This document shows positions 916 to 17,689 of a stretch of DNA of 22,073 nucleotides, piece after piece. Origin of the DNA: a virus. Positions within the stretch are counted from its first letter, which is position 1. Every line of letters begins with the position of its first letter. A program made the position numbers and the translations under genes. The DNA is taken from positions 1-22,073 of the IMG/VR virus record IMGVR_UViG_3300030085_004610; one strand, 5' to 3'. The notes beneath the pieces were generated by a model, which was not told the origin of the DNA, did not search any database, and was given only the letters and a program-made list of their open reading frames with translations.

Positions 916-1062
916 ATGGAAGATAAAGTAAAAAAAGTAATGTCAGAGTTCAAAAAAGGTGAGCTTAAATCAAGCAGTGGCAAGAAAGTGACGAGCCGCA
1001 AGCAGGCTTTGGCCATCGCACTTGCAATGCAACAAAAAGCCAAAGGAAGAAAGAAGGGTTAG
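916..1062 (+). CDS. DUF6496-like small protein (48 aa)
   Basis: A 48-codon gene too short for routine ORF cut-offs. The pattern VKKVMSEFKKGELKSSSGKK followed by VTSRKQALAIALAM is the signature of the DUF6496 family (KVM-EFK-G-L-SG-GKKVTSRKQAIAIAL), found in bacteria and many phages; function unknown. The C-terminus is very basic (QQKAKGRKKG). ATG at 916, stop TAG at 1060-1062. Its stop overlaps the stop of the opposing oxygenase gene within the four bases TTAG at 1059-1062, leaving no space for a terminator. Confidence 0.8.
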   Translation: MEDKVKKVMSEFKKGELKSSSGKKVTSRKQALAIALAMQQKAKGRKKG

Positions 1063-1856
1063 ACCAAAGGCCAGCTTCTAAACCATTTTGTAATTACATA
1101 CTTATCACCTCTGATGGGTGGCAGCGCTTCGTGCAAAGTCTTGAAATTAGGTATCCCATTTTTATAGAGATTGTTCCATAGCAAAAGCTGTCCCCGTCTG
1201 GGTTGAAAAGATTTGTTGAGGAATTTGAATCGGGTTTCTCCACCAGACTCGACATCATTTAGGTAAACCATCGCCGTCCAAGTCCGTTGCCCCATCCACT
1301 CGCAATAGACTTTGAACTCCTTAGTGTGAGGATGAAAAAAGTCACAATGCTCTTTGTAATACTGACCTGGTTTGTATTTCTGAGCTTGCAAACTTTCGCC
1401 TAAAAAAGGATCAATTCCCATAAATTTTGTGATCTTTTGATCAATATTTAAGAAGAATTCGTCGTCAAGAAAGTGTAAATTTGCGGTACTGCTTGTTCTG
1501 TAAGAAGAGACAAGCCCGCTGTCCGTCTTATCTGCCACTGTTGATGGACCTAGGCTGGCATCAATAAAATCAATTAATTTCGCACACTCGTCTTCATTCA
1601 AAAAATCTTTCTTCACATACATCTGTGTGAATGGGTAAGGCATGCGCGTTGCACAATCCTTGAAGGGCAGGTTGTTGAAGTACGAATAGTCGATTTTTTT
1701 TGGTTTCTTTTTAAAATCAATCAAATTCAGTACATCATCCAATTCCTGATCTGTCCACCCATAATCTCGTTGAAAGGTGCGGCACAGCTGTGTTTTACTT
1801 GCGCCAGCTATTGCGCCCTTAAAAAAATAATCAACTAAAAACTGGTCCAAAACCAA
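1059..1856 (-). CDS. Fe(II)/2OG-dependent oxygenase, prolyl 4-hydroxylase type
   Basis: About 265 aa. Residues 75-262 form a P4H-type double-stranded beta-helix: QAQKYKPGQYYKEHCD with iron ligands H170 and D172, YLNDVESGGETRF, distal iron ligand H242 (TLHEALPP) and 2-oxoglutarate-binding K252 (GDKYVITKWF). All catalytic residues are present, so it should be active; the substrate (protein prolyl or lysyl residues, or something else) cannot be told from sequence. Residues 1-70 look like a helical extension. The start is TTG at 1856 directly after an in-frame TGA; a TTG at 1850 is also possible and no ATG precedes residue 72. Related oxygenases are common in T4-like cyanophages. The gene stands alone on its strand. 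Confidence 0.88.
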   Translation of the reverse strand: MVLDQFLVDYFFKGAIAGASKTQLCRTFQRDYGWTDQELDDVLNLIDFKKKPKKIDYSYFNNLPFKDCATRMPYPFTQMYVKKDFLNEDECAKLIDFIDASLGPSTVADKTDSGLVSSYRTSSTANLHFLDDEFFLNIDQKITKFMGIDPFLGESLQAQKYKPGQYYKEHCDFFHPHTKEFKVYCEWMGQRTWTAMVYLNDVESGGETRFKFLNKSFQPRRGQLLLWNNLYKNGIPNFKTLHEALPPIRGDKYVITKWFRSWPLV

Positions 1857-2170: not shown

Positions 2171-2199
2171 CTGACAAGTCAATTCAGCGCTGTTAGGAT
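2171..2199 (+). promoter_or_regulatory. candidate sigma70 promoter for the nblA-like gene
   Basis: CTGACA at 2171-2176, 17 bases, then TAGGAT at 2194-2199: five of six and four of six matches to the -35 and -10 consensus at ideal spacing. A transcript would start near 2206, about 16 bases before the ATG at 2222. This would let host polymerase express the gene early. Pattern match only. Confidence 0.4.
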
Positions 2200-2221
2200 A
2201 CCTTTAAGATTGAGAATTACC

Positions 2222-2437
2222 ATGGATGCATTAGAGCTTCCCGTGGACGTGGAATTTCAAATCCACGCAGCATCAATTGCCATTCAAGGAATGGATCGTG
2301 ACGAGCTCGAAGAAGCGTTTATTGAGATGCTCCATCAAAAAGCTGTCGATAAACAAATGTTCCTAAGCGTTCTCAAGGATCACGGCATTGATGCCGATAT
2401 CAAATTCAACTTCTCCACTATTGGACAAATCTCCTAA
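2222..2437 (+). CDS. nblA: NblA-like phycobilisome degradation adaptor
   Basis: 71 aa. Residues 5-55 follow the NblA family pattern without gaps: a short N-terminal helix (LPVDVEFQIHAASIAIQ), then MDRDELEEAFIEMLHQK in the place of the conserved SREQ/SREDLE...L..RQK stretch, then a terminal helix (MFLSVLKDHG). NblA proteins (about 55-70 aa) are helical-hairpin dimers that bind phycobilisome subunits and deliver them to the Clp protease, which bleaches the antenna. Phage copies are known from freshwater cyanophages such as Ma-LMM01 and from an uncultured marine cyanophage. A 16-residue tail (ADIKFNFSTIGQIS) extends past the usual end. An in-frame TTG at 2210 is possible, but the ATG at 2222 fits the family length. 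The gene ends 5 bases before the next ATG. The presence implies a phycobilisome-bearing host, not Prochlorococcus. Confidence 0.8.
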   Translation: MDALELPVDVEFQIHAASIAIQGMDRDELEEAFIEMLHQKAVDKQMFLSVLKDHGIDADIKFNFSTIGQIS

Positions 2438-2442
2438 ATACC

Positions 2443-2826
2443 ATGGCTGATCGCATTATTCACGGTACGCTTGATACCTTCAACGTGGATACAGGTTCTG
2501 AAATCACCTACAAAGGACCTGGAGCCGGCATTGACCGTGGTCTAAATATCCGCAGTTTTGAGATTAACCCGGCTGCCACAGGTAACCACATCGTTAACCT
2601 AAAGCGTTCTACGGGCATTGTCAGTATGGAAATCTTTCAGGATGATTCCTACACTGCAGCAAATGCTCCGACCGGTTATCAAAAGTCTTTCAACGTGGCG
2701 AAAGCGGGCAAGGGAACCGGTGCTATTGGCGTCAACGTGACTGATGCGTCTAAAAACTATCTTGTGCAGTTGACTTTAGACGGCTATTCTGAGGTCAGCT
2801 ACGACATCTTAGTTGAGATCCCGTAA
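2443..2826 (+). CDS. unknown protein, possible virion or decoration protein
   Basis: 127 aa, beta-rich, with almost no Cys and many Gly, Thr and Asn residues (for example GAGIDRGLNIRSFEINPAATG and the terminal LDGYSEVSYDILVEIP). The composition and the alternating hydrophobic pattern resemble small phage virion proteins, but I do not recognise a family, so that is inference. ATG 2443 follows the NblA stop by 5 bases, so it is likely co-transcribed with nblA. The 3' end overlaps the TTG start of the lysozyme-fold gene by 14 bases. Confidence 0.65.
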   Translation: MADRIIHGTLDTFNVDTGSEITYKGPGAGIDRGLNIRSFEINPAATGNHIVNLKRSTGIVSMEIFQDDSYTAANAPTGYQKSFNVAKAGKGTGAIGVNVTDASKNYLVQLTLDGYSEVSYDILVEIP

Positions 2827-3562
2827 GAAACAGCGGACTTGGAAAGAGTTTCCTTTTCTTACGGAAGCAGGAATTCAACTAATCAAAATTCACACCAAGC
2901 CTCGTACCTGCTTAGGTATGGGGCTTTTTGGTTCGTACAAGGATTATGGCGAGTCGGATTACCGAATCGGCTATGGGAGTATCAGCCTTTGGAACAGGCG
3001 CGTCGGTATGCATGATAAGGCAACGCGACAGGAAGTTGAGGCACAACTCATTGAGGATCTTAAAATCTTTTCGTGTCAAGTAGCAGAGTATGTCTATGTA
3101 CCTCTTAATAGATCACGCAAAGGAGCAGTTCTTAGCTTTGCTCACAGCGTCGGTTTGCTTGCTTTTAAAAACTCTAAATTGTTGAAGCTGATCAATAGCC
3201 ATGCATCTAAGACAGAGATTATCAAAGAGTGGAGCCCATACATCAATAGGTATTGGCTTTCAGGGGGTGCCGGCATGCGTGATCGAAGACGTGCTGAGCT
3301 AGATCTTTTTCTCTCTGCAGACAAAAAAATCCCAACCTTCACAAAACACAAGTGTCATACTCCCGTCTGCCTGCTCAATCTCCCAGATACTTATACAGGG
3401 GCACCGAATCAAGTTAAAGCCGTTGAATATTTAGAGAAGAAACTCAATGAATGGGATCCTACTGGCCATGTTATTCGCCGCTTTTATCGACTTTGGTCCC
3501 AAAATCCAACTGGTCTAGGGTCTCCAAAGCCTCAGGAGAAAAATGCTTTAGAAGATCAATAG
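2813..3562 (+). CDS. GH24 lysozyme-fold protein lacking the catalytic Glu
   Basis: 249 aa. Residues 15-168 follow the phage-type (T4/lambdoid GH24) lysozyme layout: FLTEAGIQLIK, then SYKDYGESDYRIGYGSI (the YKD...IGYG stretch), EVEAQLIEDL, VPLNRSRKGAVLSFAHSVGL with KLLKLIN, and the closing GGAGMRDRRRAELDLFL. However, the catalytic Glu that should precede YKD is absent: there is no glutamate between residues 19 and 46, and the family's catalytic Thr position is R51. D44 is kept. So it may have lost muramidase activity, or use another residue. Residues 170-249 are an unassigned extension. The only start that keeps the N-terminus is TTG 2813, overlapping the previous gene by 14 bases. Roles could be structural (tail or virion) or a divergent endolysin. 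Confidence 0.7.
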   Translation: MRSRKKQRTWKEFPFLTEAGIQLIKIHTKPRTCLGMGLFGSYKDYGESDYRIGYGSISLWNRRVGMHDKATRQEVEAQLIEDLKIFSCQVAEYVYVPLNRSRKGAVLSFAHSVGLLAFKNSKLLKLINSHASKTEIIKEWSPYINRYWLSGGAGMRDRRRAELDLFLSADKKIPTFTKHKCHTPVCLLNLPDTYTGAPNQVKAVEYLEKKLNEWDPTGHVIRRFYRLWSQNPTGLGSPKPQEKNALEDQ

Positions 3563-16602: not shown

Positions 16603-17205
16603 CTATACACCCCGTTTTAAACGTTTACGAAAGCCGTACGAAAGTGAGACTCTCCTGACAAGACGAGCCGCCTCGGGCGCCTGGCCTGGGTTTTGCATCA
16701 GGGTTTGGCGCAGCTCTTCTTTGTCCGCGTAGACATCCTCGCGTTGTTTGATGACTTCACCGTCACGGATTGTTTCAACAGTAAGAGTCTTTTTGATGCC
16801 GAACTTTTGCTTTTCGTTATCACTCCAGTCAGAAAAGTTTTCCTGTACTTTAGGAAGGACATTTCTGATCGTGGCTTGATACTTTATACCCGTCGGTTTT
16901 GAGCTTATCAATTGGTTTTGATAGGCCGCTTTAATGATGTTAATAACATTTTGCCGCTTGTTTTTCCAGTAAGAAACGCTCTCCTTCAGCTCATCCAATT
17001 CGCTTGTAAATTGTTCAATGCAGTTATCACATTCACGGATGACCGAGATGATGGCATCAAATTTATAGGCTTCCCTGCTTTTGAGATCCTGCCAAAGATT
17101 TGCAAGCTCCTCCCGTTCCTCTTCATCCGTGTTGGGAAGATCAATCAGCTCTTGAATCATCTTCTGGTCTTCGAGGATCTCCCTGTAACTTTTGGGGTCA
17201 GCCAT
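16603..17205 (-). CDS. siphovirus Gp157-like protein
   Basis: 200 aa from ATG 17205 (the frame extends to 17277, but that would overlap the upstream gene by 80 bases). Layout of the Gp157 family: acidic N-terminal half (NTDEEEREELANLWQDLKSR), a long coiled coil (FDAIISVIRECDNCIEQFTSEL; DELKESVSYWKNKRQNVI), then a beta part (GIKYQATIRNVLPKV). Residues 130-200 carry a basic end (SYGFRKRLKRGV). Gp157 proteins occur next to SSB, primase or recombination genes in siphophages and are implied in DNA replication or recombination; the precise role is unknown. It shares 8 bases with the oxygenase gene upstream. Confidence 0.65.
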   Translation of the reverse strand: MADPKSYREILEDQKMIQELIDLPNTDEEEREELANLWQDLKSREAYKFDAIISVIRECDNCIEQFTSELDELKESVSYWKNKRQNVINIIKAAYQNQLISSKPTGIKYQATIRNVLPKVQENFSDWSDNEKQKFGIKKTLTVETIRDGEVIKQREDVYADKEELRQTLMQNPGQAPEAARLVRRVSLSYGFRKRLKRGV

Positions 17206-17689
17206 TGTAGAGGTCACGCAAGGAACAGTAATCCTTCTCCTCTTCGAAGTAGAGAGAGAAAAGGTATCGAGGGCCACCGAGGTTGATGACCGTATGAGGC
17301 ATTTGATTGTTGAACAAGTAAAAGGTGTCGGCTTGATACTTCAGCTCGATCACGTCTTTGTTCAAGGCATCGCGCTGCTCACCAAAAAGAGCGTGGCTGC
17401 TGTCATTTGTGCTGTACAGCATGTTGACGCAGGATAGGCGATATTCGTCTACATGCCAGTCGTAGACAGACATCGGCTCCACGCGAAGCAGGCCCAGTCT
17501 TTTGATCTGCCAAATCTTGTCCAGCTCTTGTAGGGCTGGTTCTATCTGGATGAAATCAGAGGGAAGCGGAACAGCTCGAAAACCGAAATGCTCTGCCCAT
17601 TCGATGTCCTGATCGAGGAGCCACTGGATGTAATCAGGTAGCTCTACTGCTTTGTGCCGGAGCGGGGTAAAGCAGTCCTCCTGATTCAC
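17198..17689 (-). CDS. Fe(II)/2OG oxygenase, second, short cyanophage type
   Basis: 163 aa. Beta-helix oxygenase motifs: YDWHVDEYRLSCVNMLYS with H79 and D81, LFGEQRDAL, and TFYLFNNQMPHTVINLGGPR with iron ligand H132 and 2OG-binding R141 (PRYLFSLYF). This form, with Arg rather than Lys as the 2OG anchor and the FNNQ-PHTV-N motif, recurs in marine cyanophages; the substrate is unknown. It differs from the P4H-type enzyme at 1059-1856, so they are not recent duplicates. GTG 17689 overlaps the stop of the small basic gene as GTGA. Confidence 0.8.
   Translation of the reverse strand: MNQEDCFTPLRHKAVELPDYIQWLLDQDIEWAEHFGFRAVPLPSDFIQIEPALQELDKIWQIKRLGLLRVEPMSVYDWHVDEYRLSCVNMLYSTNDSSHALFGEQRDALNKDVIELKYQADTFYLFNNQMPHTVINLGGPRYLFSLYFEEEKDYCSLRDLYNG

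Follow-up and report, generated by a model that had tools for sequence, protein, structure and literature searches.

The 71-residue protein encoded close to the start of the window (the whole stretch of 22,073 nucleotides analysed here, which covers the first 22 kb of a virus record 28.6 kb long) is, on the evidence of profile searches, a well-supported divergent homologue of NblA, the adaptor that delivers phycobilisome proteins to ClpC (PMC7966870). The open reading frame is real, and its product is MDALELPVDVEFQIHAASIAIQGMDRDELEEAFIEMLHQKAVDKQMFLSVLKDHGIDADIKFNFSTIGQIS (MDALELPV...GQIS). It is likely that this divergent viral NblA is a stable, near-core gene of S-EIV1-like cyanophages and that it acts in antenna breakdown. 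The features of the locus are collected in Table 1.

Table 1. Features of the nblA-like locus, in window coordinates. E-values are those of the Pfam matches.
Feature	Position	Strand	Remarks
2OG-Fe(II) oxygenase	1059..1856	-	PF13640, 1.4e-15; faces away, conserved upstream neighbour
-35-like hexamer CTGACA	2171..2176	+	weak; read from the sequence
Conserved box TTCAGCGCTGTTAGGATA	2183..2200	+	holds extended -10 TG-n-TAGGAT, with the -10 at 2194-2199
nblA-like gene	2222..2437	+	ATG 2222, stop 2435-2437, 71 aa (coding 2222-2434)
NblA core, residues 5-53	2234..2380	+	predicted helices 8-22 and 26-53
Conserved C-terminal tail ADIKFNFSTIGQIS, residues 58-71	2393..2434	+	kept across the family; no confident predicted structure
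127-aa protein	2443..2826	+	no known family; follows nblA immediately in almost every relative
Phage lysozyme (endolysin)	2813..3562	+	PF00959, 3.6e-15; phrog_7; true start uncertain

Homology to NblA and predicted structure

Direct scans with the single window protein gave no Pfam and no PHROG match, and weak matches of single members to the FF domain, DUF3231 and NinB were not supported by the profile searches. When the window protein was compared with the PDB by phmmer, the two best matches were two NblA structures, with poor E-values (0.018 and 0.066); residues 5-52 align to residues 9-56 of 3cs5 without a gap, as the earlier note had read the NblA core. A profile of 25 diverse family members, searched against all PDB chains, found the NblA structures of S. 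elongatus (3cs5, 1.1e-6) and Anabaena (1ojh, 5.1e-4), the next chain following at 0.2. NblA is thus found by the family profile, even though the single sequence has no Pfam match. Profile-profile comparison with 33 cyanobacterial NblAs agreed (94%, E-value 1.4e-7). The narrower first profile scored 29.4, with a maximum of 22.6 in 200 column shuffles and 13.8 for the reversed profile.

The family profile was also searched against 386 cyanobacterial genomes, where the seven best matches (E-values up to 0.0021) were all NblA genes, called as such by an independent NblA profile; one of the six weaker matches was an NblA as well. The identification as NblA made in the earlier note is therefore borne out, since profile searches rank NblA on top both in the PDB and in cyanobacterial genomes. 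When the NblA profile was applied to 7455 ORFs from 81 viral sequences, each of the 40 best matches listed was a member of the window family. A side observation concerns a cyanobacterial genome with two ordinary NblA matches, which also carries a very divergent 64-aa NblA-like gene (G148:C1:2669066-2669227, L437), possibly of phage origin.

The relationship is a distant one. The core shares only about 20% identity with cellular NblA, and one branch of the tree (97/99) separates the phage family, together with S-EIV1, from all cellular NblAs. The best relatives match Pfam NblA at 4e-4 and 21.2 bits; because the curated cut-off, a detection threshold, is 25 bits, we treat the protein as a divergent homologue of NblA that falls outside the curated Pfam family. 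Low identity, the Pfam score below cut-off, the conserved tail and the separate clade are the points in which the phage family differs from cyanobacterial NblA (PF04485). Common to both are an ungapped 50-aa core starting with L-[SP]-x-[DE]-x-[EQ]-F and a helix-loop-helix with a conserved Lys at the end of helix 2, the nearest cellular type being S. elongatus NblA with RE-LE-LFIE--RQK----F. In the phage proteins this residue is Lys52, invariant in the 25 diverse members and aligned with Lys53 of Anabaena NblA, whose role was reportedly described by Bienert in 2006. Searches of phage records by tblastn, with the window protein and Anabaena NblA as queries, gave no match, which is weak evidence since known freshwater phage NblAs were missed as well.

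AF2, run on the diverse alignment, predicted helices at residues 8-22 and 26-53 with a mean pLDDT of 81, and gave low values for the tail (49-62). This helix-loop-helix, which the earlier note had anticipated, matches the two-helix, short-turn layout of about 60 residues that is typical of NblA. Comparison of the models with the PDB by Foldseek returned no NblA among its matches; the result is uninformative, because two-helix chains are too small for this method.

The conserved tail, the gene block and its promoter

Scanning IMG/VR with the family alignment yielded 256 matching stretches, and stepwise searches from divergent members widened the family further. In all, 78 distinct proteins of 69-74 aa were gathered. 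They share both core and tail (tail consensus DHGIDAxIxFNxSTxxQIS), so the tail is a family trait. It had been described as an added oddity of one phage, 16 residues long; it comprises 14 residues and is fixed and conserved across a large family, which rules out a tail specific to the window phage. The tail does extend past the NblA core, as claimed, and cellular NblAs have no counterpart to it. Some cellular NblAs are 65-71 aa, as long as the window protein, and hence the length of the tail is not exceptional; the conservation of its sequence is. In 73 distinct coding sequences pN/pS was 0.149 for residues 1-53 and 0.152 for residues 54-71 (the ratios are approximate, pS being near saturation), and with equal values in both parts selection maintains the tail no less strongly than the core.

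The gene heads a block with the conserved order nblA, 127-aa gene, lysozyme. The 127-aa gene, which belongs to no known family by Pfam and PHROG scans, lies downstream of nblA in 286 of 292 loci, and lysozyme is the third gene in 278; the oxygenase, facing away upstream, was found in 206 of the 292, many of these loci being incomplete. The 292 loci are redundant and partly incomplete, and represent 146 distinct contexts. In the main class, nblA is the best conserved gene of the block, with a median identity of 83% versus 59% and 62% for the 127-aa gene/lysozyme pair. The earlier note had placed the gene beside virion-like genes and a D5-type replication module; the D5-type primase (PF08706) is present but 9 kb away, and the immediate neighbours are the 127-aa protein and the lysozyme. 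A terminator-like hairpin at 2897-2926 was discarded (one found versus 1.4 expected, inside the lysozyme reading frame). The window holds a second 2OG-Fe(II) oxygenase (17198-17689), with a weak Pfam match (0.033).

Upstream of the gene, CTGACA and TAGGAT are present with the 17-nt spacer that had been reported, and a TG precedes the -10. A generic sigma-70 scan gave six matches versus 3.1 ± 2.0 expected, about chance level. Despite this we take the element as real, because the extended -10 is conserved in relatives: TGnTAnnAT occurs at -40 to -14 in 58 of 60 dereplicated upstream regions, compared with one of 60 in a control stretch of equal width, and the promoter stretch carries 1.27 bits of information per column, versus 0.14 further upstream. 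The -35 hexamer as first read did not stand, since most relatives keep another register, in which a spacing of 16 nt rather than 17 separates a -35-like TTG from the -10; within the 71/72-aa class, 34 of 37 dereplicated relatives have a TTG in that place. The window counterpart of this register is TGACAA (2172-2177). The box TTCAGCGCTGTTAGGATA is single-copy in the window at up to three mismatches (0.02 expected) and therefore looks like a dedicated host-type promoter, conserved and belonging to the nblA-like gene itself, and not like a phage-wide motif. From its position a transcription start is predicted near 2206, 7 nt past the -10.

S-EIV1-like cyanophages and other phage-borne NblAs

Of the 39 window ORFs, ten have a match in Synechococcus phage S-EIV1, including a primase (33% identity over 98% of the length), an exonuclease (42%) and a pair of small proteins (about 51%). 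The S-EIV1-type terminase, at 60-83% identity, is present in 17 of the 20 long nblA-bearing contigs and absent from the 28.6-kb fragment that holds the window. Seven of these 20 contigs carry psbA, and eight have a domain resembling hli, which in most cases scores under the Pfam cut-off.

In S-EIV1 itself the corresponding protein is AHV82245.1, hypothetical by annotation (KJ410740.1 73902-74222; L433 28902-29222), which is the top S-EIV1 ORF for the family profile (1.4e-6) as well as for the NblA profile (3.5e-5), and whose best Pfam match is NblA (0.014). By these sequence matches it looks like an unrecognised NblA homologue. The protein is 106 aa long and carries an acidic C-terminal extension; it shares about 30% identity with the closest of the family members tested. 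It shares the neighbourhood beside lysozyme, although it follows the lysozyme gene, whereas nblA of the window family precedes it. In an earlier survey this lineage, listed among the environmental cyanophage groups (G238, S-EIV1), was recorded with hli and ptoX, and without nblA (PMC5332604).

Three further observations were made in these genomes. The S-EIV1 terminase (L433 9080-11617) holds an insertion, about 330 aa long and possibly an intein, since residues 1-198 and 531-846 are matched by relatives without interruption. One 88-kb contig (G391; L078) has a terminase closest to that of S-EIV1 (79-83%) and yet, unlike S-EIV1, an ordinary 71-aa nblA near its end, either by mosaicism or because the contig is chimeric. 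In another relative psbA is split into two overlapping reading frames (G398:C1:63595-64498), which may reflect a frameshift, the trace of an intron or an assembly error.

Marine phage NblA is said to be widespread and functionally proven, according to work by Nadel in 2019 and 2025. NblA had been taken to be rare in marine phages; this claim is outdated, since phage NblA, marine included, is well known: 11 marine and 4 estuarine isolates with nblA were on record by 2022 (PMC9602691), and PMC12892361 cites work on oceanic viral NblA that appeared in Nature in 2025. The marine proteins (S-TIM5, podoviruses, ORF237 of S-SCSM1) resemble the window family in being cyanophage homologues that simple searches hardly detect. 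ORF237 differs in its length of 54 aa, the absence of the C-terminal tail and its assignment to another PHROG, and it was missed by the same NblA profile that finds the window family. The freshwater phage NblAs (Ma-LMM01, MaMV-DC, PaV-LD type) are likewise phage-borne homologues with an expected bleaching role, but sit in other phage lineages. The PHROG of this freshwater type is likely phrog_23930, which catches cellular NblA and not the window family. Within the literature consulted, and Nadel et al. 2025 aside, S-EIV1-like phages with a divergent NblA lineage of their own, a conserved tail and promoter, and a fixed gene are new.

Proposed function

Homology to NblA implies that the protein should act as an antenna-degradation adaptor during infection. 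Host RNA polymerase would transcribe the gene from the extended -10 promoter, and the product would take the NblA helix-loop-helix form, as a dimer by analogy. The end of the second helix would bind phycobiliproteins, which would be brought to the host ClpC protease and the antenna dismantled; its loss would free amino acids and change the light input during infection. We infer dimerisation, phycobilisome and ClpC binding, bleaching, the timing of expression and a role for the tail, probably as an extra docking arm for the phycobilisome or ClpC. A less probable reading is that the tail makes a functionally distinct adaptor, for instance one aimed at another antenna protein (phycoerythrin-rich rods) or acting on ClpC itself, so that the whole lineage would have a re-aimed NblA as a core infection gene.

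A repurposed NblA homologue, binding ClpC or phycobiliprotein as an anti-adaptor with the new function carried by the conserved tail, appears improbable. Such a protein might occupy ClpC to spare phage proteins, or protect the antenna. The separate clade means that function could have shifted, the tail is without counterpart in cellular NblAs, and the presence of psbA in several genomes with this nblA points to continued photosynthesis. However, core and helix layout are NblA-like, those phage NblAs that have been tested lead to a loss of pigment (PMC9602691), and psbA and nblA co-occur elsewhere: psbA is annotated in S-TIM5, a phage listed with nblA (PMC9602691). That the protein is instead a small helical virion or lysis-block protein, a partner of the 127-aa protein or the lysozyme with a chance or convergent likeness to NblA, would fit its near-constant place beside these two genes and the weak scores of the window protein alone, but is very improbable and largely refuted: the PDB search is topped by NblAs alone, NblA genes rank first in the search of cyanobacterial genomes, no column shuffle attains the score of the real profile, and within the S-EIV1 genome the homologue comes out, independently, as the best match to NblA.

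Overall, the nblA-like gene is fixed and strongly conserved in a widespread S-EIV1-like lineage, and standard annotation misses it. If the protein bleaches its hosts, counts of nblA-bearing phages that are based on Pfam or BLAST would be underestimates, and S-EIV1 together with its Synechococcus host would provide a cultured test system.
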